NCBI RefSeq assembly: GCF_903772925.1
Contig: NZ_LR812090.1
Span: 2,810,333-2,874,332 of the forward strand
DNA from: Alteromonas macleodii
Lineage (GTDB): Bacteria > Pseudomonadota > Gammaproteobacteria > Enterobacterales > Alteromonadaceae
DNA: 64,000 nucleotides
Direction of reading: 5' to 3'
In this document: one piece after another, positions 51,527 through 64,000 of the stretch
Position numbering within the stretch: position 1 is the stretch's first letter
Layout of the letters: every line of letters starts with the position of its first letter
Program-made: the position numbers and the translations under genes
The notes under the pieces: model-generated
Told to the model about the DNA's origin: nothing
The model's database searches: none
The model's input: the letters and a program-made list of their open reading frames with translations, nothing else

Positions 51527-54244
51527 TTACCATTTCATAGTGAAGGACGCTCTAAGTGTTCTTCCTCTTTCAGTATTAGTTAATAGCGCTATTGGAAACT
51601 GTGCATACGTGCGATTGTTCTCTTCTGTTAAGTTGTTCCCCTGCAGCGAAACACTCATGTTATCGTTAATCGTGTATTTGTAAGTTAAAGCCAATTGGTT
51701 GAATTCATCGCTATACCAGCCTAAATCCTCGGTACCTATAGACTGCAAGTAAGGATCTCTAAAATTGTAGGCAACCCTAATACTGTGTTTTTCCTTTTCA
51801 TAATACGCAATTAAATTTCCACTCTTTTTAGATAGCCCTAAATACGGTTGCGGGTTACCGGATAAATCTGTTAAGTCAGTATCACTATTGATTACCGCAT
51901 AGCTCGCCGTTACCCCAAATCCGTCAAAGGGTGCAGGGAGAAAGTCAAAAGCTTGTTGATAGTAGAATTCAATGCCCTCAATAGTCCCACCTTCTCCGTT
52001 GGCATCCTGAGCAATGGTGAAAAAAGGCACTTCCGGGTAGGAAGGAAAGCTTAAATTATTTTGTCTAGGTATAACGAACGACGCAATATCTTTTGTGAAG
52101 AGCGTTGTAGTAAAGGCAGAGGATTCGTTGAAATACCACTCAGCGGATACATCAAATTGCGTAGCTTCAAAAGGTTTTAGTTCAGGAGAGCCTCCATTGC
52201 CGAAACCCGGTACTAAATTTCCGTTGTCATCTGTATCCGTTCTCACAAATAGTCTAAATGAATTACGCATTGAAGCAGTGCTAGGGTACGCAAGCACTTT
52301 AGCCCCGCCTAATCTCAACTTAAAATCATCTGTAACATCTAAATTGAAAATTACTGAGGGTAAGAAAGTTGAATTCGTTACCTCAACAGTCGACCCTGTC
52401 ACTTCAGTCGATGATACAGCCTGATTCCCTATCGATGTAAGGTCACGCTTTAACCACCTACCACCAAAGTTGCCACTAGCTCTCATACCAGCAAACTCAA
52501 AGTCGTAGTTAATTTTCAAATAGGCAGCTAAGTGGTCTTCTTCAATATTCCATGTACTTAATAAATTATTGATGTCAGCGTCAGGGTTTAAACACTTTTG
52601 GCGATCTGCTTCAGTAAATACATCAATAACAAATTCGCACCCAACAATATTCCTTCCTTGCCCAATCAAATAACTTCTCGGTAACTCACTTAACGCATTG
52701 GGTAGATAATCTGTATTTGAGAATGTTTCAAAAAAACCGTCTAAATTGAATTTTTGCTCATAATCAATAAGATTGTCGGTCGGTTGATTACGAAACGGAA
52801 CTAACTGTCTATTCCCCGCATCTGTATTGGTTTGGTATCGTTGTAATCTAACACCTGCCTCTAGTTTCGTGAAAATAGGACTATCGAGATATATATCGCT
52901 ATCTATACTTAAAGCGTAGTGTTCAGTACGTGTACTTTGCTTATTATCGAAGTAGTTATTCCATCGATAGGCACGTTTATCTAATGGGTCAGCATCGAAG
53001 TTAAATTCACCACCAAAATCACCTTCTCTTACGTCAAAGTCGATATCAAACGTTTCTAGGGTTTGTACTCGATTAAATACTTGGATTCTATCGGACTCCG
53101 AATTACTGTAAGTAAGCTCGGAAGAAATAATAGCCTCGTCAGTAATTTGCCATTCGTTTTGTAATGCAACGGATAAAAGGTCAGTTGAAAGGTCAACGTA
53201 CTCCGCATTGTTTTGTAAGGGACTTTGTGCCGACCCTGCCACTAGGAAATTGTTTTCATCGACTACAGCATTAGAAAAATCCCCCAGCAATGGCGTTGAT
53301 AACCAATGCCTATCTCTTACTGAGTCAAATTTTGAATATAGTGCATCGAAAACAAAATAAAGGGTCTCTAATGGTTGCCACTGTACTATTGACGACGCAC
53401 TCAATCTGTCGCGGTCGTCTATTATTTGTTGAAAACGGGGATCGCTATTTATAAATAACTTTTGTTCTGCGCCTTGCGCATCTAAATCTAAACGATTACC
53501 GTCAGAATCCGTTGCCATCCGGTCGGTAGCAAGCGAAGTCCACCCGTTAAACGTACCGACACCATCTTGTGATACTTCCCTTTTGTCTAAATTCGCGCTT
53601 AAAAGTATCCCCACTTGATCGTCAGAAAACGTATTTGAATAGGAGCCGAACAACTGGTTCCCTAAACTATTATTCTGATCATTATAATTTACAGCATAGG
53701 AAAATGCTTTTTGTTCGCCAGGGTTATCGAATGCGGTTTGGCTTTTGATGTTAATCACGCCGCCCATAGCACCATCAATCATATCGGCTGATGATAGTTT
53801 CGTTACAGTTAAGGATTTTGTTAACGCAGAAGGTACCATGGCCATAATGGAATAGGTCGATGTGTTCAACGTATCCATTCCCGTTCCTCCGCGCCCGTTT
53901 ACATCTACAATTGTCCTTCCATTGTACAAAATAACATTGTCACGTAACCCCCTTATAGATACGGAAGAGCCTTCACCAATACCTTGGTCGACTTGAACGC
54001 CCGCCACCCTTCCGAGGGATTCTGCGACCGTCACGTCTGGCAACTTTCCTATATCATCGGCAATAATGGAGTCTTCAATTTGGTCTGAGTAGCGCTTATT
54101 TGCAGTCGCTGCAATCAATGACGTTCTTACCCCTTTAACCTCTATCACTTCCACAGACTTATCGATTTCCTGTGCAGTTCCGATGTTGGTACACAAAATC
54201 GTACCTACCGCCGAAGCTACCATTGAAAGTTTTTTTATCTTCAT
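51527..54244 (-). CDS. TonB-dependent receptor (polysaccharide-locus type)
   Basis: A 905-residue outer-membrane receptor. The signal peptide ends GTAQ; TonB-box-like VEVIEVKG precedes a plug domain (about 45-170: DSIIADDIGKLPDVTVAESLGRVAGVQV, SVSIRGLRDNVILYNGR), then a 22-strand-type barrel ending in aromatic KW. The TIGR01782-like plug wording (AESLGRVAGV) is typical of carbohydrate receptors in Alteromonadales. I start it at ATG 54244 after GAGGATTG. It probably imports the oligosaccharide released by the GH16 enzymes. A candidate operator (54271-54289) sits 27 bp upstream, over a TATTAT -10-like sequence. Confidence 0.9.
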   Translation of the reverse strand: MKIKKLSMVASAVGTILCTNIGTAQEIDKSVEVIEVKGVRTSLIAATANKRYSDQIEDSIIADDIGKLPDVTVAESLGRVAGVQVDQGIGEGSSVSIRGLRDNVILYNGRTIVDVNGRGGTGMDTLNTSTYSIMAMVPSALTKSLTVTKLSSADMIDGAMGGVINIKSQTAFDNPGEQKAFSYAVNYNDQNNSLGNQLFGSYSNTFSDDQVGILLSANLDKREVSQDGVGTFNGWTSLATDRMATDSDGNRLDLDAQGAEQKLFINSDPRFQQIIDDRDRLSASSIVQWQPLETLYFVFDALYSKFDSVRDRHWLSTPLLGDFSNAVVDENNFLVAGSAQSPLQNNAEYVDLSTDLLSVALQNEWQITDEAIISSELTYSNSESDRIQVFNRVQTLETFDIDFDVREGDFGGEFNFDADPLDKRAYRWNNYFDNKQSTRTEHYALSIDSDIYLDSPIFTKLEAGVRLQRYQTNTDAGNRQLVPFRNQPTDNLIDYEQKFNLDGFFETFSNTDYLPNALSELPRSYLIGQGRNIVGCEFVIDVFTEADRQKCLNPDADINNLLSTWNIEEDHLAAYLKINYDFEFAGMRASGNFGGRWLKRDLTSIGNQAVSSTEVTGSTVEVTNSTFLPSVIFNLDVTDDFKLRLGGAKVLAYPSTASMRNSFRLFVRTDTDDNGNLVPGFGNGGSPELKPFEATQFDVSAEWYFNESSAFTTTLFTKDIASFVIPRQNNLSFPSYPEVPFFTIAQDANGEGGTIEGIEFYYQQAFDFLPAPFDGFGVTASYAVINSDTDLTDLSGNPQPYLGLSKKSGNLIAYYEKEKHSIRVAYNFRDPYLQSIGTEDLGWYSDEFNQLALTYKYTINDNMSVSLQGNNLTEENNRTYAQFPIALLTNTERGRTLRASFTMKW

Positions 54245-54270
54245 TTTTAACAATCCTCACTTAGTCGTAA

Positions 54271-54289
54271 AATCACTATAATAGCAATT
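54271..54289. promoter_or_regulatory. IclR-operator candidate, site 1
   Basis: AATCACTATAATAGCAATT, a pseudo-palindrome centred on CTATAATAG. Its 14-bp core on the minus strand (AATTGCTATTATAG) is identical to that of site 3 at 59483. It lies 27 bp upstream of the TonB receptor start. Confidence 0.55.
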
Positions 54290-54379
54290 ACCATGAAAGC
54301 ACAAGTGATTTTGTTATCAATATGTAATAAATATAAAAATAATATGTTTGATGTTTTAAACTAAGTAGATTATTATCGT

Positions 54380-54398
54380 AATATCTATTATAGCAATT
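54380..54398. promoter_or_regulatory. IclR-operator candidate, site 2
   Basis: AATATCTATTATAGCAATT, the same pseudo-palindrome (AATNNCTATWATAGMAATT), ends 15 bp before the ATG of the GH16 lipoprotein gene. It is in the same divergent region as site 1, with centres 109 bp apart. Confidence 0.55.
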
Positions 54399-54413
54399 AG
54401 AGGGGGGGTAAGT

Positions 54414-55325
54414 ATGAATGTTTGCAGAAAAATGTCTGTGTTAACGGTAGTCGCATTGGGGTTAGGTGCGTGTTCTGATCTGGCAGAGACAAAGGTGCAG
54501 CCGCTATTAGAAGCGAATAACGATAATTATACGCTGGTCTGGAACGATGAGTTCGATGGAAATGCGATTGATGAAACTCGTTGGCAGTATCGACTAGATT
54601 GTAAGCACTGGAGCAAACAACTGCAATCTAATAACGTCGTAGCTGATGGTTACTACACTATCTTATTAAAAAAAGAACGTGTGGAATGCCCCAATAATAC
54701 CTGGTTGCAGCCGGGCCAAAAAGAAGGTGATGAGCCCGCTCGTGCTGTGCATTACACGGGTGGAGGGATTATCTCTAAATCACTATTTCGCTATGGTTTT
54801 TACGAAGCGCGCTTAAAAACACCGGTGGGTGCTGGTTGGCATAGCTCTTTTTGGATGATGAAATACCTAGAAAAAACCGAAAACAGCGACAGTCTTAAAT
54901 TTAATCCGCTGGATGATCCAAGTTTACACAGTCACATCGAACTTGATCCCTTTGAAAATGACTCCATCGATCCTACCCATTTTCAAACCGATGCCCACCA
55001 ATGGAAACCTGAACCAGGGACCGAAGATAAGGGCCGCAAACAAAATAAAGTTGGCACTAAGCAAATTCGATTTAATGACGGCACTACACTAACGGAATTC
55101 CATGTTTATGGCATGGAGTTTACCGAGACCCACGTGCGCTATTATTTCGACGGAAAACTGGTGAGCGAAACAGAGTTTCCAGCCCCCCGTTACAAACACA
55201 ACGACGTGAATATTTGGCTCACTGGGCTAGGAACCTTCCTTGGAAATACTCAAGCAATAGATGACAGTAAATTGCCTGAGCAAATAACCGTAGATTATGT
55301 GCGCTTTTTCAAAAAGAACAATTAA
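54414..55325 (+). CDS. GH16-family glycoside hydrolase, lipoprotein
   Basis: A 303-residue predicted lipoprotein (LGLGAC, Cys20) with a GH16 jelly-roll. LVWNDEFDGNAIDETRW opens the domain, and the catalytic ExDxxE is ELDPFE (Glu176, Asp178, Glu181), preceded by WHSSFWMM. C-terminal FHVYGMEFTETHVRYYFDGK and ITVDYVRFF complete the fold. GH16 enzymes cut beta-1,3 or beta-1,4 galactan or glucan chains; the neighbouring sulfatase favours a sulfated galactan, but the subfamily cannot be set by eye. It heads an operon with the symporter and sulfatase. Start ATG 54414 after a G-rich AGAGGGGGGG site. Confidence 0.85.
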   Translation: MNVCRKMSVLTVVALGLGACSDLAETKVQPLLEANNDNYTLVWNDEFDGNAIDETRWQYRLDCKHWSKQLQSNNVVADGYYTILLKKERVECPNNTWLQPGQKEGDEPARAVHYTGGGIISKSLFRYGFYEARLKTPVGAGWHSSFWMMKYLEKTENSDSLKFNPLDDPSLHSHIELDPFENDSIDPTHFQTDAHQWKPEPGTEDKGRKQNKVGTKQIRFNDGTTLTEFHVYGMEFTETHVRYYFDGKLVSETEFPAPRYKHNDVNIWLTGLGTFLGNTQAIDDSKLPEQITVDYVRFFKKNN

Positions 55326-55336
55326 GTGAGATAATT

Positions 55337-57046
55337 TTGACTTCATTTGACGTTTCAATTGCTATCACCTTCGCATTGCTTGTTGTTCTGCTAGGACTCT
55401 CTTTTGGCAAAAAAGAAGGCTCGGTATCCTCTTTCTTCGCTGCTGGAGGTGCAGTTCCCTGGTGGATTTCCGGACTTTCCTTGTTTATGAGCTTTTTCTC
55501 TGTAGGAACCTTCGTTGTATGGGGCTCTATTGCGTACAAGACGGGGCTTGTTTCTGTTACAATACAAACAACAATGAGTCTAGCTGGACTTGCAGTTGGG
55601 TATTTCATCGCGCCGAAATGGAATCGAACTAACGTTTTAACAGCCGCAGAATTTATCTCAACAAAGCTTGGACATGCATCTCAGAAGTTCTATACGTATC
55701 TCTTTTTCATAATCTCTATCTTTAGTGGTGGCGCGTTTTTATACCCTGTAGGAAAAATGATAGAAGTCACAACGGGCATACCGCTTGTCTCGGCTATTCT
55801 TTTTCTCGGCGTACTCATTATTGCCTATACCGCCGTAGGTGGTTTATGGGCAGTTTTGGTTACCGACGTTTTGCAATTTATCGTTCTAATGGCCGCGGTT
55901 AGCATAATCGTCCCCTTGGCATTTGAGGAAATTGGTGGTGTGGGTATGTTTATAGCTAACGCACCCAGCGATTTTTTTCAGGTAACAAACGCTGAGTATG
56001 ATTGGCTATTTATGGCCGCGTTTGGCTTCTATAACATGGTTTTTATTGGTGGAAGTTGGGCATACGTACAGCGCTACACGAGTGTTAAATCAGAAAAAGA
56101 TGCAAAAAAAGTTGGCTATCTATTTGGAGTTTTATACCTAATTGCGCCGATCATATGGATGTTGCCACCTATGGTTTACCGCATTATTAGTCCTGATACA
56201 GCCTCCACTGACGCCGAAGGAGCTTACCTACAAATCAGTAAATTAGTGGTGCCAAATGGATTAATGGGGTTAATTCTTGGCGCGATGGTATTCGCGACAG
56301 CCAGTTCCGTTAACACCACATTGAATATTGCCGCAGGCGTATTCACTAACGATATTTACCCACAAATAAAACGAAAACGTAGTGCGTTTGAAACTATGTG
56401 GGTTGCTAGAACGTCAACGGTATTTTTTGGCGTATTATCGATAGTTATCGCGCTTTGCGTATCAAGCATGGGGGGTATTGTAGAGGTCGCTTTTAGTTTA
56501 GCCGCTATTACTGGGGTTGCCTTATTTCTACCTCCTGTATGGACGCTATTTTCGGACAATCAAACACAGTTGAGTGTTATTTCTACTAGTGTTATCAGTC
56601 TTTCAATCAATGTCGCTTTTAAATTTTTTATCCCAGAGCTATTGGGGATATCGCTTGACCGCTCAAGTGAAATGTTTGTGGGTGTGATTGTGCCAATATT
56701 CCTTTTGGCAATTTGGGAACTTTACTACCGCTTTCTTTCCAATACACATAATGCGCCCGGCAATAAACAACCGGTTCAAAGGGCGGGCTTCTCTCCCTCT
56801 AACGTAAAAACGCCAGAAGCCACTCATTCAAACGACTTACCCCCTTCGACTAACGATGCCAACGAACAAGGAAAGAAAATTATCGCAATTGGCATTGGTG
56901 GTATAGGGCTCATTATTTTCGGCTTGGGCCTTCAAGCTGACAAAGGGCAAAACACTATCCTACTGGTGGGCACTTTTGTATTAGCTTTATGTATTACCGT
57001 ATACCCCAAAACATTATTTAATCAACGTAAGGACACTCACGTATGA
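55337..57046 (+). CDS. Sodium/solute symporter (SSS family)
   Basis: A 569-residue transporter with about 13-14 membrane helices, of the SSS/SLC5 family. FFAAGGAVPWWISGLSLFMSFFSVGTF, AYTAVGGLWAVLVTDVLQFIVL and MVFATASSVNTTLNIAAGVF are the conserved blocks. Near the C-terminus a Pro/Ser/Asn-rich loop (about 470-512) separates the last two helices from the core, which is unusual. It probably carries a monosaccharide or sulfated sugar from the locus into the cell. The start is TTG at 55337, after GTGAG just past the GH16 stop; its stop overlaps the sulfatase ATG (ATGA). Confidence 0.88.
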   Translation: MTSFDVSIAITFALLVVLLGLSFGKKEGSVSSFFAAGGAVPWWISGLSLFMSFFSVGTFVVWGSIAYKTGLVSVTIQTTMSLAGLAVGYFIAPKWNRTNVLTAAEFISTKLGHASQKFYTYLFFIISIFSGGAFLYPVGKMIEVTTGIPLVSAILFLGVLIIAYTAVGGLWAVLVTDVLQFIVLMAAVSIIVPLAFEEIGGVGMFIANAPSDFFQVTNAEYDWLFMAAFGFYNMVFIGGSWAYVQRYTSVKSEKDAKKVGYLFGVLYLIAPIIWMLPPMVYRIISPDTASTDAEGAYLQISKLVVPNGLMGLILGAMVFATASSVNTTLNIAAGVFTNDIYPQIKRKRSAFETMWVARTSTVFFGVLSIVIALCVSSMGGIVEVAFSLAAITGVALFLPPVWTLFSDNQTQLSVISTSVISLSINVAFKFFIPELLGISLDRSSEMFVGVIVPIFLLAIWELYYRFLSNTHNAPGNKQPVQRAGFSPSNVKTPEATHSNDLPPSTNDANEQGKKIIAIGIGGIGLIIFGLGLQADKGQNTILLVGTFVLALCITVYPKTLFNQRKDTHV

Positions 57047-58551
57047 AGTACTTATTGTTATCTCTTATCTTAATTTTTAGCCCATTCGCATTCGCTACCC
57101 CCGAGAAAAAACCGAATGTACTTGTGCTCTTTTTTGACGATATGCGATTTGATACATTTTCTTATCGAGATGGGCCAGTACCAACCCCAAATATCGATAT
57201 GCTTGCAGAGCAAAGTGTACAGTTTAACTCAGCTATGACGACAACCGGCCTTTGTTCACCTTCAAGGGCTGCCTTATTTACCGGCAGATGGGGGCACAAA
57301 ACGGGCCTCGACGACAATGTTGAGCTGTTTCACTCTCGTCAATACCAACTTTCGCCTTCTGAAGGGGGACTAATAAAACGGGCGGTAGATAGCGACTATT
57401 TTGTAGGATATGTTGGTAAATGGCATATAGGCCCCCAAGGGCCAAAGATACGTGGCGCTCAATTTATTCGGGAGCACGCAGATACGCGCACCAGAAAGCC
57501 TCGCCATTATGTACCTTACGCCGATGTAGAAAGTATTAAAGGCTATTATCAAGGGCAGCGAGATGAAAACGGTGAGAAACACGTTTACTACCAAACTATA
57601 CCGGGTACTTATAAAGATACAGAAGCGTACCATAAAGTTGAGTATGGAAAAGAGATGTTGGTTGCGGCCGCTCAACAAGACAAGCCCTTTTTCGGCGTGG
57701 TGAGTTTTAATCAACCTCACCCACCCTATCGTGTTCCCGAACCGTACTCCAGTATGTTTGATCCCAAGGACATTTCTTTGCCCGACAATTTTGTGCAAGA
57801 AAGAAATTTTAAACCAATGGCGCAGGACAAGGTATTGTGGCCTTGGCATGATGTGGGGCATATGACAGAAAGCGATTGGCGTCGTTCTCAGGCACACTAC
57901 TACGGCGCCATAGCAATGGTTGACGACATGGTTGGGGAGCTATTGCAAACAGCGAAAGACCTCGGTTTATATGATGATTTACATATTGTTCTTTTAGGCG
58001 ATCAAGGGAGCATGATAGGTGAACACAATCTTTTTGATAAAGGTCCATATGCCTATGACGAACTCATGCGCATTCCCCTACTCTATCGGAATCCAGATAC
58101 CACGCCCAAAGTAATTACCCGGCAAGTATCGATGATAGATTTGGCGCCCACATTAGGTGAGCTAATGCACCTTCCCAGTGATGGGGACGTAGATGGGCGC
58201 TCATTAGTACCGCTTATGATAAACGGGGACAAGGCTGAAGCAGGCCAAGAGGATACCGCACTTTATATGTACGAATGGTACAACGGAGCTTGGTTTGGAC
58301 TAAGAGCGCTGCGCACGCCCGACTTAAAATTCGTTTGGTACCCGGGAGATAACAGAGATGAACTCTATGATTTGAAAAAAGACCCTGGTGAACTTACAAA
58401 CTTGATTAAAAACGCTGACTATAAGCAAAAGCTAGCCCATATTACCTCACTTTTAGAGCGTGAACTGGCGCGGGTAGATGATCCTAGGTTGGACGTATAT
58501 CAACATCACCTGAAAAGTATTCTTTTACAAGAGAAAGAAGCGAGCTGGTAG
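57043..58551 (+). CDS. Type I (formylglycine) sulfatase
   Basis: A 502-residue exported S1 sulfatase (signal peptide ending FAFA). The maturation motif CSPSR with Cys71 (GLCSPSRAALFTGR) gives the catalytic formylglycine; VLFFDDMRFD supplies metal-binding aspartates and LLGDQGSMIGEH the second metal site, with GKWHIG near residue 125. It removes sulfate esters from a polysaccharide or oligosaccharide. Its start overlaps the symporter stop by 4 bp. The sulfatase-maturating enzyme it needs is not in the window. Substrate inferred from context: a sulfated galactan. Confidence 0.92.
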   Translation: MKYLLLSLILIFSPFAFATPEKKPNVLVLFFDDMRFDTFSYRDGPVPTPNIDMLAEQSVQFNSAMTTTGLCSPSRAALFTGRWGHKTGLDDNVELFHSRQYQLSPSEGGLIKRAVDSDYFVGYVGKWHIGPQGPKIRGAQFIREHADTRTRKPRHYVPYADVESIKGYYQGQRDENGEKHVYYQTIPGTYKDTEAYHKVEYGKEMLVAAAQQDKPFFGVVSFNQPHPPYRVPEPYSSMFDPKDISLPDNFVQERNFKPMAQDKVLWPWHDVGHMTESDWRRSQAHYYGAIAMVDDMVGELLQTAKDLGLYDDLHIVLLGDQGSMIGEHNLFDKGPYAYDELMRIPLLYRNPDTTPKVITRQVSMIDLAPTLGELMHLPSDGDVDGRSLVPLMINGDKAEAGQEDTALYMYEWYNGAWFGLRALRTPDLKFVWYPGDNRDELYDLKKDPGELTNLIKNADYKQKLAHITSLLERELARVDDPRLDVYQHHLKSILLQEKEASW

Positions 58552-58569
58552 CAATATCATTAAGGTACG

Positions 58570-58608
58570 ATTGTTGGCCTACGCTTTAAAGCAGCGGCCA
58601 ACAATTAT
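58570..58608. terminator. Bidirectional terminator between sulfatase and IclR genes
   Basis: A perfect 10-bp stem, ATTGTTGGCC / GGCCAACAAT, with a 16-base loop sits between the convergent sulfatase and IclR genes, followed by TATT on the plus strand. Confidence 0.75.
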
Positions 58609-58621
58609 TCCCCATATATCT

Positions 58622-59383
58622 TTACGGTACCGGCATTTTGCCCAATTCACTTTCTATTTTAGTTCGAGCATCTTTAAGCACACATACAAGATCATCTACA
58701 TCTACAGGTTTTATTTTACCCTGGAGTGCAATGGCTGAGTTGGCTGGGGAGCCTATGGTCATTGCTAAAGAGTAATAAGCTTTGTCATTTTCCGCTTGAA
58801 GTTCATGACTTTGAAAAAGTGCGTAGCCACGCTGTTTAATTTCTTCCAGTTCACTAAGCAGGCTCTCTAGGCCATCTGGAAACCCTTCGATAACCTTGTT
58901 TTGATATGCATCTATAACAGCTTCTCTCGGAGAATTAGCTAACATCACCATACCGATACCGCTTGTGGTGGCGCTACGCACGCCAATTCTACCTATCCCT
59001 TCGGTAGCGCGCATACCTGGCTTTGCGTGATAAATAAATGAAACCGTATCAAACCATAACACACCCATTGCAACGGTTAAGTCAAATTTGCCAAGTTGCT
59101 CCAACGTAGGCATTGCGCTTCGAAGCAATCCTGAGGCATATAAGCTCTGAGCTGAAAGTACGTGTATACCTGGTCCTGGAATGTACTTTCGTCCCTTTGT
59201 TTGCTGTGTCATTCCAATTGAAGCAAGGGTTTTCAAAAGTCTGTTAACCCTAGTGCTATCCATGTTTAGCTTTTCTGATAAATCCTTCCCCCCTACGGGC
59301 ATGTCAGAACCAGCAAGAGCTTGCAACACTGAAATCCCGTCCAAGATGCTCTGATTTATTTGTGCGCCTGGTTTAGTTTTCAT
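58622..59383 (-). CDS. IclR family transcriptional regulator
   Basis: A 253-residue IclR-type regulator: N-terminal winged helix (about 8-70: GISVLQALAGSDMPVGGKDLSEKLNMDSTRVNRLLKTL) and C-terminal effector domain (about 90-250: GIGMVMLANSPREAV, YALFQSHELQAEND, SIALQGKIKP). The ATG at 59383 is preferred to an upstream TTG. It is divergent from the FAD oxidoreductase, with a candidate operator in between that recurs in the TonB receptor/GH16 promoter region. It therefore probably controls the whole polysaccharide locus, with a sugar or sugar acid as effector. Activator or repressor status is not known. Confidence 0.88.
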   Translation of the reverse strand: MKTKPGAQINQSILDGISVLQALAGSDMPVGGKDLSEKLNMDSTRVNRLLKTLASIGMTQQTKGRKYIPGPGIHVLSAQSLYASGLLRSAMPTLEQLGKFDLTVAMGVLWFDTVSFIYHAKPGMRATEGIGRIGVRSATTSGIGMVMLANSPREAVIDAYQNKVIEGFPDGLESLLSELEEIKQRGYALFQSHELQAENDKAYYSLAMTIGSPANSAIALQGKIKPVDVDDLVCVLKDARTKIESELGKMPVP

Positions 59384-59482
59384 TTGTTTTCTATCTTTCA
59401 ACGATCAAAGTGAATTACAGGGATCATACCACAAAAGTTACAAACGCAATTTAACCGAAATCAACTAAAACAAGCTGACCAA

Positions 59483-59501
59483 AATTGCTATTATAGAAAT
59501 T
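59483..59501. promoter_or_regulatory. IclR-operator candidate, site 3
   Basis: AATTGCTATTATAGAAATT, the best palindrome of the three; with one more base on each side it is self-complementary at all but three of 21 positions counting the centre. It lies in the promoter region shared by iclR and the FAD oxidoreductase gene. Confidence 0.6.
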
Positions 59502-59548: not shown

Positions 59549-61393
59549 ATGAAGAGTTTTATTGATTTGGCTGACCGCTCTAACGACAACTGGACACAAA
59601 TGGGAAACTTTGAAAGGAAGACACCCATACGAGATAAAACAGTAACGCTTGATGTAGCAGTCGTAGGTGGTGGTATGGCGGGAATCTGTGCTGCTGTTGC
59701 TGCGGCTAGAAATGGCGCGAAAGTACTCCTAATCCAAGATAGAGCGGTATTAGGAGGAAATGCCTCAAGTGAAATTAGAGTAATTGTGCATGGTGTAACA
59801 AAGTTAAAAAGTGGGCTTCCAGAACGAGAAACGGGAATTTTAGAGGAAATTCTCTTGCTTAACCGTTTTTGCAATGAGCAACACTCATTTACTGTATGGG
59901 ATCATGTCTTATACGACTTCGTTACCCGCGAACCCAATATAACCTTGATGCTTAACACCCATGCTGTGCGCTCAGTAGTGGAAAGTGAAAAAATAGTTCA
60001 AGTGTTATGCTGGCAGTTGAGCACAGAAACCCTAATCAGTGTGGAAGCTAATACTTTTATCGATTGCTCTGGCGATGGCTTGATGGCAGCAACAGCCGGT
60101 GCAGAATACCGCACGGGTCGTGAGGGTAAACAAGAATTTAATGAGCAATACGCGCCTGACGAACCTGATGGTTGGCAAATGGGGGCCACTATTTTGTTGT
60201 CATCAAAAGACATGGGAAAACCTATGCCTTATCAAGCGCCCCCGTTTGCGATTAAGTATGACGCTGAAAAAACACATCCAGATAGACGCATCATTCCTTT
60301 TGTTGAAGGGTTTTGGTGGGTAGAGGTAGGAAGTAACGATGACATTATAGGTACGGCAGAAACAGATATGCATCGGCTACTCGCGTTTGCGTACGGCGTG
60401 TGGGAGCATGTTAAGTGTTCGGGGCTTTATCCGGAAGCTGATAACTTTGCGCTTGATTGGGTAGGCTCCCTTCCAGGTCGGCGGGAGTCACGACGGTTTA
60501 TGGGAGACTATATATTATGCGAACCCGATCAACTGAGTCTTAAGCAGTTTGATGACGCAGTGGCCTTCGGAGGCTGGCCTCTTGATGAACACAACCCTGG
60601 GGGCATTGAGAATCTTGCGGAGCCACCGAGTTTTTGGCACGAGCACTTTGAAGAAGTGTACCAAATCCCCCTTCGTTCTCTATATTCCAAAAATATTAAG
60701 AATTTAATGTTTGCTGGTCGCAATATTAGTCAAACCCACGTTGCGTTATCTTCATCTCGCGTAATGGGGACATGTGCTGTACAAGGTCAAGCTGTGGGTA
60801 CTGCTGCTGCATTATGCTTAAAGCATAGCGCACTACCAAGAGACATTGCGACTGACCATATAGATGAATTACAAGAGCAACTGTTACGGGATGATGCATA
60901 CATTCCTCAACGCTATGCAAACGACCCTAACGACCTATCGCGAACAGCAGACAGAATTATTGCCAGTAGCACCCTTTCAGGCGAAGTGAAAAACCTAATA
61001 GATGGTATGGCAAGAGATGAGCGGGGTGAAGTTCATCATTGGTGTAGCAAAGGTTTAGGCGCTACCGTTTCTTTTGAGTGGGATACACCTATAGCAGCTT
61101 CTCAAATAGAGGTGAAATGCGACACCAATGTCAAGAAAAACATAATGATGCTAAAAAACCCCCGTGAAAATGAAGCCTATACCACAAAGATCCCTGTCGA
61201 GTTGTTAAAGCGTCTTACCCTTGAATTAAATATAAACGGCGTTTGGAAAACGATTTGCGAGAAAGATGATAATCAACGTCGGCTGATAAAGTTTAATTTC
61301 GAGAAGCAAAAGATAGATGGCTTCCGTCTAACTTTGAAAGAAACCTATGGCGCTAAGAACGTTAAGTTATTTGAGGTCAGATGCTACCAATAA
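59549..61393 (+). CDS. FAD-dependent oxidoreductase (PF12831-like) with C-terminal beta-rich domain
   Basis: 614 residues with no signal peptide. The dinucleotide-binding site is VAVVGGGMAGICAAVAAARN (GGGMAG at 40-45), followed by LIQDRAVLGGNASSEIRV, the GGNASS pattern of the FAD_oxidored (PF12831) family; AGRNISQTHVALSSSRVMGTCAVQGQAVGTAAAL closes the FAD domain near residue 425. Residues about 500-614 look like a beta-sandwich, galactose-binding-like domain (SFEWDTPIAASQIEVKCD, IDGFRLTLKETYGAKNVKLFEV). It probably oxidises a sugar released by the locus; the substrate is unknown. The ATG at 59549 follows AAAGG. It is transcribed away from iclR. Confidence 0.82.
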   Translation: MKSFIDLADRSNDNWTQMGNFERKTPIRDKTVTLDVAVVGGGMAGICAAVAAARNGAKVLLIQDRAVLGGNASSEIRVIVHGVTKLKSGLPERETGILEEILLLNRFCNEQHSFTVWDHVLYDFVTREPNITLMLNTHAVRSVVESEKIVQVLCWQLSTETLISVEANTFIDCSGDGLMAATAGAEYRTGREGKQEFNEQYAPDEPDGWQMGATILLSSKDMGKPMPYQAPPFAIKYDAEKTHPDRRIIPFVEGFWWVEVGSNDDIIGTAETDMHRLLAFAYGVWEHVKCSGLYPEADNFALDWVGSLPGRRESRRFMGDYILCEPDQLSLKQFDDAVAFGGWPLDEHNPGGIENLAEPPSFWHEHFEEVYQIPLRSLYSKNIKNLMFAGRNISQTHVALSSSRVMGTCAVQGQAVGTAAALCLKHSALPRDIATDHIDELQEQLLRDDAYIPQRYANDPNDLSRTADRIIASSTLSGEVKNLIDGMARDERGEVHHWCSKGLGATVSFEWDTPIAASQIEVKCDTNVKKNIMMLKNPRENEAYTTKIPVELLKRLTLELNINGVWKTICEKDDNQRRLIKFNFEKQKIDGFRLTLKETYGAKNVKLFEVRCYQ

Positions 61394-61558: not shown

Positions 61559-62560
61559 ATGCCAAATATTCAAATCAAAAAAGTCTACTCTTTTGCTTTA
61601 TCGTTAAGTTTCTTTTTTAGCGTTCAATCAAGTGCCGCCCCTGTTTTCCCTCTTTCCGACCCTATGAATAAAGGAGGTTGGGTACTAAATAAAGAAGTAA
61701 GCGATGAATTTGATGCAGATAAAGTGGACGAAGATAGATGGTTTATTGTTGGCAAATTCAAAGACGGTAAACCGCAATATGTTCATCCTGACGACCCAGA
61801 TAAATGGGTGTGGAAAGGTCGCGCTCCTTCACAGTTTTCAGGCCGCAACTATCGCTTAGAAGATGGAAAGCTGATGCTTGAAGCGCGCTGGGAGCCTGAT
61901 TTCCCATTCACTGACGAGATTAGAAAGCCGACATTTGGTGAACCCATGAAGCACGAAAATATCACTACGCCGTGTTTTATAGGTCGCCGTTCTTTTACCT
62001 ATGGCTATATTGAAATAAAGAGTAAGTCTGCCGATGCGGAAGTCACCAGTGCGTTTTGGTCTATGGGACCTAAAATGGAGTTCGACTTTTTCGAGTCGTT
62101 TGGCGACAGCCGAGAAGATCCTAACAAAGACCATTTAGACAGTGAACTATGGTGGTCTATTCGCGACTGGGAAAAACCTGTCGGCGGCAAACCCAGCTAC
62201 ACAGAAAGAAAGCAGCTGGGCTTTAGAATGGCTGATGACTTTCATGTTTACGGTATTGAATGGAGCGAGGACGGCATAAACTATTACATTGACGGAGAGC
62301 TATTTTCATCTATGACGCCAGAACAAGCGACTGCGTGGGCTAAGCAAAACCGTGAAGGACTTCCTGATGACTACAACGGATACGTGGCCACTCGCCCTAT
62401 TAATTTATGGCTCGATATGGAAACCTTCCCATGGCATGGCTACCCTAATAGTCTAGAGGATTTAGAAAAAAACAGCCCCGAAGACAAAAAACTCGATGGT
62501 GTGGTAGATTTTGAAGTGGAATACATTCGCGTATGGCAAAAGCCTGAAAATATCCAATAG
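61559..62560 (+). CDS. GH16-family glycoside hydrolase, secreted
   Basis: A 333-residue exported GH16 enzyme (signal peptide ending VQSSAA). SDEFDADKVDEDRW opens the domain; the catalytic ExDxxE is EFDFFE (Glu174, Asp176, Glu179) after SAFWSMGPKM; FHVYGIEWSEDGINYYIDGE and VDFEVEYIRVW close it. WVWKGRAPSQFSGRNYRLEDGKL recalls agarase/porphyranase-like members, but the subfamily is uncertain. With the sulfatase and lipoprotein GH16 it probably starts depolymerisation outside the cell. No copy of the operator palindrome was seen upstream. Confidence 0.87.
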   Translation: MPNIQIKKVYSFALSLSFFFSVQSSAAPVFPLSDPMNKGGWVLNKEVSDEFDADKVDEDRWFIVGKFKDGKPQYVHPDDPDKWVWKGRAPSQFSGRNYRLEDGKLMLEARWEPDFPFTDEIRKPTFGEPMKHENITTPCFIGRRSFTYGYIEIKSKSADAEVTSAFWSMGPKMEFDFFESFGDSREDPNKDHLDSELWWSIRDWEKPVGGKPSYTERKQLGFRMADDFHVYGIEWSEDGINYYIDGELFSSMTPEQATAWAKQNREGLPDDYNGYVATRPINLWLDMETFPWHGYPNSLEDLEKNSPEDKKLDGVVDFEVEYIRVWQKPENIQ

Positions 62561-62694: not shown

Positions 62695-64000
62695 CTAAAG
62701 CTTAATATTTGTTCCGGTTACGATGTTCCCTACTGACTTTTTCTCACCGTTAGCCCAGATAACATGTACATTCTCAACAACATCACATTCACCAATTCCA
62801 AAATGCATTTTGCTATTTAGCATATGGTGGAAGCCATCCCCAGTGGCACCTACATGTTGAGTTTGCTGCCTACCGCAAGCCGTAATAGTTACTCTTGCAC
62901 CTGTGGGCTGGGCTTGTTGGTCGGCAGACGCTCCTACTTCTACCTTGATAAAGTTACCCAAAACATTTTTTGGTAACTGATTTTGAGCTAAGTACCAGCG
63001 ACCTCTTTCATTGCCATAAACCAAGTCCATACGGCCGTCTTGGTCATAATCGAATGCGGTGACTCCGACACCCGTGGCTCCTATTTCATCAGAGGTTAGT
63101 CCAACGTGAGGAAGCTTTTTAAATCCCGTCCCAGCTTCGTTCATCAATACGTAATGCTCCACAGGCAAGGCCATATTTCCATAAGGGGTAATCGCTAAAT
63201 CCATAAAACCGTCATTGTTGAAATCGGCTGCGGCAACACTGGTGGTTTGTTCTTGGATATCAACACCTACACTATCTGTAGCATCCACAAATTTACCGCC
63301 TCGATTTTCGAGCAAAAGTGCTGGCATAGGCTTTCGCTTCAATTCACCAGGGTGGTTAATAACATTTTTTATTACCGCCGATAAACGAGATTTAACTGCG
63401 CCGCCAACACGCCATTTTCCGTTACCTATATAGCCAATATGCATGCCCTTAAGTATTTCACCTTCTGGCCACCCCATCGCCTCGTTTGGTGTAATCTCAA
63501 GGCGACCATCCATATAGTGCGCAGTGCGCTCAGCTTCAACAACCTTCCGTTCGCTGCCTAACTGAATGTCATAGGTTGCATAGGTTTCTTGGATATTTTC
63601 CAAGATAAGGTTTTCGCCTTCAACGGTGATGTCGTCATACATAAAGTTGTTTCTGAACACAAAGAAAGCAAAGTTTTTATTTTTAGGATCGTAGTAGGCT
63701 TCTTGTTGAAATTGGTAAGGACTACGTGCGAGAAATAAGTCAAAGTCCCCGTCGTTGTCATAGTCTATTTCTGCAATGTTGATTACATTGTGGGTATTAG
63801 CCAAATCACCTAAAGCTTCCTTTGTTTTATCTACATAGCTCCCGTCCCCTTGCCCTACCGATAGTGTCATGTCTTTACCTCCGAAGGTAATTACATCGGA
63901 AATATGGTCGTTATTTACATCTGTAACAAGCGCTTTTACTGAAAGCGCATCATGAGGGATAGATAAGGTTAATGGGTGTGAAAAGCTTGTCCCTGAATTC
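62695..64000 (-). CDS. VCBS/FG-GAP repeat protein with ASPIC/UnbV domain, 5' end outside window
   Basis: The reading frame is open to the right edge (435 codons present). FG-GAP/VCBS repeats with calcium-loop aspartates recur: DVNNDHISDV, DYDNDGDFDLFL, DFNNDGFMDLAI, DYDQDGRMDLVY. The C-terminal 80 residues are an ASPIC/UnbV domain (GARVTITACGRQQTQHVGATGDGF, MHFGIGECDVVENVHVIWANGEK). Such CRTAC1-like proteins are exported and bind calcium and probably carbohydrate or surfaces. It converges on the second GH16 gene. An internal ATG at 63870 is not the true start. Confidence 0.85.
   Translation of the reverse strand, partial: NSGTSFSHPLTLSIPHDALSVKALVTDVNNDHISDVITFGGKDMTLSVGQGDGSYVDKTKEALGDLANTHNVINIAEIDYDNDGDFDLFLARSPYQFQQEAYYDPKNKNFAFFVFRNNFMYDDITVEGENLILENIQETYATYDIQLGSERKVVEAERTAHYMDGRLEITPNEAMGWPEGEILKGMHIGYIGNGKWRVGGAVKSRLSAVIKNVINHPGELKRKPMPALLLENRGGKFVDATDSVGVDIQEQTTSVAAADFNNDGFMDLAITPYGNMALPVEHYVLMNEAGTGFKKLPHVGLTSDEIGATGVGVTAFDYDQDGRMDLVYGNERGRWYLAQNQLPKNVLGNFIKVEVGASADQQAQPTGARVTITACGRQQTQHVGATGDGFHHMLNSKMHFGIGECDVVENVHVIWANGEKKSVGNIVTGTNIKL

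Follow-up and report, generated by a model that had tools for sequence, protein, structure and literature searches.

Three candidate IclR-family operators in a predicted carrageenan locus of Alteromonas macleodii and their conservation with the regulator gene

The DNA analysed here, a 64-kb stretch of the Alteromonas macleodii genome (the window; C1:2810333-2874332 of a single contig of 4.67 Mb), carries three 19-bp palindromes in a polysaccharide locus, and we conclude that these very probably serve as operators for the IclR-family protein whose gene lies at 58622-59401. This conclusion draws on the sequence of the sites, their position, their conservation and their co-occurrence with this group of IclR proteins; at that comparative-genomics level, the candidate IclR regulon put forward in a preliminary description of the window is supported.

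The locus and its three palindromes

The genes and sites of the locus, in window coordinates, are as follows; bit scores refer to the scoring matrix described below.

51527..54253, minus strand: TonB-dependent receptor (TBDR), TIGR01782 subfamily (Pfam/NCBIfam match)
54271..54289, no strand: site 1, AATCACTATAATAGCAATT, in front of the receptor gene; its centre precedes the receptor ATG at 54244 by 36 bp; 20.0 bits, rank 3 in the window
54380..54398, no strand: site 2, AATATCTATTATAGCAATT, in front of the GH16 gene; its centre precedes the ATG at 54414 by 25 bp; 25.1 bits
54414..55325, plus strand: GH16 glycoside hydrolase (Pfam; weak relatives laminarinase and kappa-carrageenase)
55337..57046, plus strand: sodium:solute symporter, SSS (Pfam)
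57043..58551, plus strand: S1 sulfatase, very close to exo-2S-iota-carrageenan sulfatase PDB 6pt4 (E 1.9e-216)
58622..59401, minus strand: IclR-family regulator, 259 aa from the TTG at 59401, the ATG at 59383 being the likelier start; HTH_IclR and IclR_C above the Pfam cut-offs
59483..59501, no strand: site 3, AATTGCTATTATAGAAATT, in the iclR/FAD oxidoreductase interval; 26.7 bits, best in the window
59549..61393, plus strand: FAD-dependent oxidoreductase, PF12831 (Pfam, E 3e-87)
61559..62560, plus strand: second GH16, with PDB 9ijc and porphyranases as relatives

The IclR protein is the sole regulator among the eight scanned genes of the locus. Its length of 259 aa and its scores against PF09339 (26.3 bits, cut-off 22) and PF01614 (29.8 bits, cut-off 24) place it in the IclR family, and it reaches no cut-off among the NCBIfam models. 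The second GH16 gene possibly shares the operon of the FAD oxidoreductase gene. Downstream of the window lie genes for two further proteins, one related to iota-carrageenase (E 1.3e-47) and the other to exo-4S-kappa-carrageenan sulfatase 6prm (E 4.2e-191). With sulfatase and carrageenase genes both present, the locus is, as predicted from its gene content, a carrageenan module.

A second carrageenan-type gene set (L110:7146-19741; C1:2897145-2909740) begins about 25 kb and ends about 37 kb beyond the window locus. It comprises genes for a GH127 protein, an aldehyde dehydrogenase, a mandelate-racemase-family enzyme, a DGOK kinase, a KDPG/KHG-type aldolase and a GntR/FCD regulator (L110:17169-17918, about 35 kb from the window locus), together with two sulfatase-like genes, one of which matches the window sulfatase type at 62%. 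The 40 kb from C1:2870000, which include this set and its GntR gene, contain no site above 11 bits, so the IclR regulon is seemingly limited to the window module. With two carrageenan gene sets, one of them beside a GntR gene, two regulators may share the work. As a separate observation, FG-GAP/ASPIC-UnbV proteins recur in carrageenan-type loci (window 62695-63999; L109:3028-4938; L109:11878-13806), with relatives in 10 of the 20 sulfatase control loci described below.

All three 19-mers lie at the coordinates first reported for them. The shared 14-bp core described at that stage also holds: with sites 1 and 2 taken in minus-strand orientation, site 1 (AATTGCTATTATAGTGATT) has the same core as site 3, and site 2 is one base off. 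Within the locus the sites are restricted to its two divergent promoter regions, receptor/GH16 and iclR/FAD oxidoreductase, again as proposed; the centre of site 3 is 57 bp before the FAD oxidoreductase ATG at 59549 and 109 bp before the iclR ATG at 59383. The suggestion that site 1 overlaps a -10 element of the receptor gene fared less well. The minus strand does carry TATTAT, but the promoter scan gave it no -35 partner, which leaves the overlap weaker than claimed; the scan placed two other minus-strand promoter-like pairs further upstream in this region. For GH16, a TTGATG-17-TATTAT promoter-like pair ends 3 bases before site 2. The receptor/GH16 region as a whole has four promoter-like pairs where shuffled versions have 1.4 (sd 1.4), and the scan found none in the FAD oxidoreductase region. 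The promoter-pair evidence around the sites is weak.

Specificity and conservation of the motif

In the 64 kb of the window, AATNNCTATWATAGMAATT at up to three mismatches finds only the three sites (six strand matches); 100 shuffles of the window gave a mean of 1.41 matches, and three of them reached six or more. A scoring matrix built from 13 sites, all from other genomes and excluding those of the window, ranks the three sites first to third, with the next best place at 13.8 bits, and none of 100 simulated 64-kb windows (third-order Markov) reached the 20.0 bits of the weakest site. Likeness to the window consensus was how the 13 training sites had first been picked, which makes the matrix test partly circular when taken alone; that circularity is answered by a blind search that left the window out and by a protein-selected set of loci scanned with a pattern fixed beforehand, both described below.

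Across the whole A. macleodii genome, four places match at up to two mismatches, namely the three sites and one place inside a 126-aa ORF. With AATTGCTATWATAGCAATT at up to three mismatches there are six, and reversed AATTGCTATWATAGCAATT likewise gives six, so this loose genome-wide count is unconvincing on its own. The three additional places were treated as chance: C1:911766 (one mismatch) is the one inside the 126-aa ORF, C1:3321070 is also inside an ORF, which we take to be DJ-1-like, and C1:723092 falls between convergent ORFs, in what looks by eye like a terminator stem.

Nor is the motif common in genomes at large, an outcome that would have told against the proposal. In a sample of 196 family genomes scanned at up to two mismatches, a hand tally gave 47 places across the 189 genomes that lack a close IclR orthologue (0.25 per genome; five of the 189 possess a distant orthologue), against 12 places in the seven genomes with one (IclR 52-63% identical, own genome counted). 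Nine of these 12 are in the iclR locus; two of the seven genomes (G591 and G400) have no place at this threshold, and the two places of a third (G249) lie outside its iclR locus. The regulator itself is rare: counting the A. macleodii genome, an orthologue is present in 3 genomes out of 59 in the genus (E <= 1e-20), 12 out of 394 in the order (E <= 1e-25) and 14 out of 395 in the family (E <= 1e-40).

Conservation at orthologous loci, which the preliminary description had made a test of its proposal, is seen at three distances: in 5 of 6 close loci, in 11 of 13 more distant ones when judged by the core, and in 49 of 70 selected independently. The five close family loci (IclR 52-63%) each have at least two palindromes in promoter regions, although their gene order varies. 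Sites occur in the FAD/iclR and SSS/TBDR promoters of L060, in FAD/iclR and before SSS in L059, in DHDPS/iclR and TBDR/SMP30 in L061, in GH16/SSS in L029 and in SMP30/DHDPS in L030. L060 (Catenovulum agarivorans DS-2, the same as L162) has five sites, two in FAD/iclR and three in SSS/TBDR, with pairs 22 and 33 bp apart; its gene order is unlike that of the window, which indicates that the sites track promoters rather than one inherited block of DNA. The sixth close locus, L031 (IclR 52%), has no convincing site in 60 kb, its best place scoring 11.7 bits inside an ORF.

When the iclR/FAD region was aligned across three sequences, the longest invariant run (nine columns) fell in the site, against a mean column identity of 60%; a two-sequence alignment was set aside, as the sites failed to line up. 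A blind palindrome search of nine promoters from the five close loci, with the window excluded, returned ATTGCTATWATAGCAAT at a score of 175.8, compared with 110.0 +/- 3.5 (maximum 118.2) in 20 shuffles. In one of the nine promoters, upstream of iclR in L029, its pick was a half-site only. A count of 6-mer dyads was uninformative, since 40 of 40 shuffles also gave patterns common to all five loci, and the palindromic matrix search was used instead. In the stretches covered, the FAD oxidoreductase (window 59549-61393, L059, L060) and a set of SDR, SMP-30, DHDPS and mandelate-racemase genes (L029, L030, L061, L164) look mutually exclusive, and the two may replace one another in the pathway.

The 13 more distant loci are those with an IclR protein 42-47% identical, plus L031 recounted; one (L032) comes from another family of the order and the others from the same family. 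They contain 16 CTATWATAG cores where 2.5 were expected (maximum 6 in 50 shuffles). The core is intergenic in 11 loci, nine of which have it adjoining a TBDR or SSS gene, and is absent from L031 and L067. The outer arms at these loci are unlike AATTGC and are often of a TGTATC type. In the families f9 and f18 no core was found in five of six loci. The exception, L040, from another family, has two overlapping cores just before the Shine-Dalgarno sequence of a FAD oxidoreductase gene; these overlapping operators (L040:4422-4455), separated by 15 bp, together make up an inverted repeat, its arms 14 bp long, that directly precedes the start of that gene.

As a negative control we took twenty 20-kb loci with a sulfatase 62-66% identical to that of the window and no iclR match. 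They represent 20 of 34 sulfatase places, the omitted ones being 11 in genomes with a close IclR orthologue, G049, and the second places of G527 and G573; three of the 20 control genomes (G502, G573, G716) have a distant IclR relative elsewhere. None of the 20 has a site of at least 16 bits (best 15.3) or a CTATWATAG core, and this includes L147, which bears a 60% identical FAD oxidoreductase. Under a looser test, TTGCTATWATAGCAA at up to two mismatches, 4 of the 20 match (L148, L149 and L154 at two, L156 at one); the loose 15-mer pattern is not fully specific in AT-rich loci.

Recurrence of the operator across phyla

For an independent set, loci were selected by protein alone. The single IclR protein as query found no relative, and a six-protein alignment found 74 loci, reduced to 70 by dropping four that repeat training loci (L162, L163, L165, L166). 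With the pattern fixed beforehand, TTGCTATWATAGCAA occurs in 49 of the 70 at up to two mismatches and in 31 at up to one. The reversed pattern gave 1 and 0 loci at these thresholds, and shuffles a mean of 1.0 (maximum 4) and 0. The G+C content of 23 of the 49 positive loci is at least 64%. The positives span Proteobacteria, Bacteroidota, Verrucomicrobiota/Lentisphaerota, Planctomycetota, Spirochaetota and Clostridia, many of them being bins whose single taxon labels may be wrong; they include Stenotrophomonas, Luteibacter, Pseudovibrio, Aestuariibaculum and a complete planctomycete genome, as well as metagenome-assembled Lentisphaerae, Spirochaetia and Clostridia records. Among the 21 loci with no site at up to two mismatches are six from Sphingomonas, one of the three from Massilia and all four from actinobacteria. 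The scope given in the title of the preliminary description is too narrow: the motif is no Alteromonas speciality and belongs to an IclR group found in several phyla.

A pattern relaxed at the outer base, RTTGCTATWATAGCAAY, was chosen after the 74 loci had been seen and does not enter the main count; with it, 41 of 72 sites in these loci lie within 350 bp of iclR. The site centre falls 6-55 bp before the matched iclR start in 18 of the 74 loci, where the match may miss the first few codons of the gene. Within flanks of up to 10 kb, some on short contigs, the 74 loci have neighbours of mandelate-racemase type (41), DHDPS-type aldolases (40), TBDR (36), SMP-30 (28), SSS (13) and FAD oxidoreductases (11). 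In Stenotrophomonas panacihumi the IclR orthologue is near genes for DgoK and a KDPG/KHG-type aldolase, a set that resembles a De Ley-Doudoroff route (PMC5507952). A Clostridia bin (L204:7442-9814) has two perfect operators between iclR and the gene for a 790-aa protein, whose 4Fe-4S matches are weak and below the Pfam cut-offs; sugar ABC transporter-like ORFs, read by eye, lie nearby, and the target set is very different.

A profile of 81 sites, chosen by similarity to TTGCTATWATAGCAA, reads T, A/G, T, T, G, C, T, A, T from -9, followed by a central W. Comparison with published systems draws on the available parts of the papers cited. Group 1 operators of the IclR family (WTT-11-AAW, GTT-11-AAC; Suvorova and Gelfand 2021, PMC8222616) share with ours an odd-length palindrome, C/G at -4/+4, a W3 centre, TT at -7/-6 and WTT or GTT outer arms. 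They differ in having RY at -3/-2, where TA is found here, and Y at -5, where most half-sites here have G; set against the group 1 consensus GKTYCRYW3RYGRAMC, the frame, C at -4, W3 and TT arms of these similarity-chosen 81 sites agree, and -2, -3 and mostly -5 disagree. Centres of IclR-family sites are mostly at -20 to -80 from the gene start, a zone into which the window centres at -36, -25 and -57 fall, and tandem sites are about two to three turns apart, which the L060 pairs resemble (PMC8222616).

Among individual regulators, PcaU and PcaR of the beta-ketoadipate pathway (PMC8222616, Table 1) come near in operator form: the PcaU site TTTGTTCGATWATCGMACAMA has the same ATWAT centre and C at -4, but G at -3 in place of T, and it serves aromatic rather than sugar genes. 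On the PcaR/PcaU/PobR NCBIfam model, whose cut-off is 284.75 bits, the window protein reaches 40.3. KdgR, the IclR-family pectin regulator, also controls polysaccharide breakdown genes, through a different operator, GAAACG..CGTTTC (PMC8222616, Table 1); against the KdgR equivalog NF011671 the window protein scores 43.6 bits, below the cut-off of 275. A predicted IclR-family GalR in Salinivirga HL-109 (PMC5507952), compared by description, adjoins the galactonate gene dgoK, and the S. panacihumi orthologue of the window protein is likewise close to a DgoK gene. Regulators tied to carrageenan belong to other families: CgrA of the Zobellia carrageenan locus is of the AraC family (PMC5698469), and a GntR protein is found beside the Pseudoalteromonas carrageenovora locus (PMC6262041), as a GntR/FCD protein is in the A. 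macleodii genome. The literature covered, in the parts available, names no IclR regulator for a carrageenan locus; PMC12125979, in its available part, names IclR only for alginate and xylan loci, and five 15-mer forms of the operator had no match in the text covered. With an operator that departs from group 1 at -3/-2 and -5, and a protein that reaches no NCBIfam cut-off, we class the regulator as an orthologous group that is new but of a known kind, with an earlier listing among the 181 groups of PMC8222616 possible.

Residue 39 of the window IclR protein is Lys, and many orthologues have Arg. Across 51 loci, with the window counted, Arg39 occurs in 26 of 28 with G at operator position -8 and in 9 of 23 with A (Fisher p 5e-5, with no correction for multiple tests or phylogeny); this covariation of residue and base is a lead only.

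A model for regulation and its alternatives

In the mechanism that we favour, a dimer of the IclR protein would read two inverted half-sites, each an outer A or G followed by TTGCTAT, around a central A/T. Bound at the three promoters, it would control the TonB receptor gene, a GH16-symporter-sulfatase operon and a FAD-oxidoreductase-GH16 operon, with operon limits as predicted, and probably its own gene too. Our best guess is that it represses when substrate is lacking and would be released once its C-terminal domain has bound a small sugar or sugar acid derived from galactan. The dehydratase- and aldolase-type neighbours, with the DgoK/KDPG-type set of S. panacihumi, lead us to guess a galactose-derived acid as effector.

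Expression in Colwellia echini bears on this model. A contig of this species matches L029 (the same as L165), whose order GH16, SSS, SMP-30, SDR, sulfatase fits Ce372 to Ce376, and by gene order and count, without a locus-tag match, the GH16 behind the two L029 sites is taken to be Ce372. In the available part of PMC6952198, the carrageenan gene cluster is jointly regulated, the GH16 gene Ce372 has a logFC of 3.03 on kappa-carrageenan versus glucose, and Ce376 is an S1_NC sulfatase, with upregulation not stated for Ce376 itself. The GH16 behind these sites is probably carrageenan-induced.

Such induction would fit either sign of regulation. A variant of the preferred explanation, whose odds overlap with it, keeps the operator and makes the IclR protein mainly an activator or a dual regulator. 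We hold this to be possible, if the less likely sign: the family includes activators and dual regulators, as far as the available part of PMC8222616 goes, and the FAD region gave no promoter-like pair, but site 2 would cover the start of the weakly predicted GH16 promoter, and the 18 loci with a site centre so close before the iclR start suit autorepression.

It is improbable that a different regulator, encoded elsewhere and co-occurring with carrageenan genes, binds the sites. Binding by the IclR protein is predicted from sequence, and the genome has a carrageenan-linked GntR/FCD candidate; against such a regulator, the sulfatase loci that lack iclR, L147 included, have neither a 16-bit site nor an exact core, nothing exceeds 11 bits in the 40 kb that hold the GntR gene, and across phyla the site often adjoins iclR while the neighbouring enzymes change. 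That the sites are chance AT-rich palindromes or -10 boxes is barely credible and largely refuted: the two promoter regions are 71% A+T, the core contains TATAAT/TATTAT, and both the three-mismatch genome scan and the loose 15-mer test found matches in their controls, but the simulated windows never reached the weakest site, the blind search rediscovered the motif, and the forward pattern far outnumbered the reversed one in the 70 loci, with 23 fresh positives at high G+C.

Returning to IclR as the cognate regulator, a broader reading, to which we give even chances, is that one nearly invariant operator, TRTTGCTATWATAGCAAYA, is read by this IclR group across several phyla while the targets change. 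Regulator and operator would form a deeply conserved pair serving galactose-derived sugar acids, which marine Gammaproteobacteria took over for the breakdown of carrageenan, and residue 39 (Lys or Arg) would have a part in selecting the outer base. The changing targets would be a FAD oxidoreductase and symporter, a galactonate-type dehydratase and aldolase, the carrageenan module, and other genes in Clostridia.

A defined operator, three promoters and one regulator make a ready-to-test set for a carrageenan module. The same operator in several phyla, including loci of 64-70% G+C, is an unusual persistence for a bacterial operator, and one that could aid the prediction of function in uncharacterised loci.
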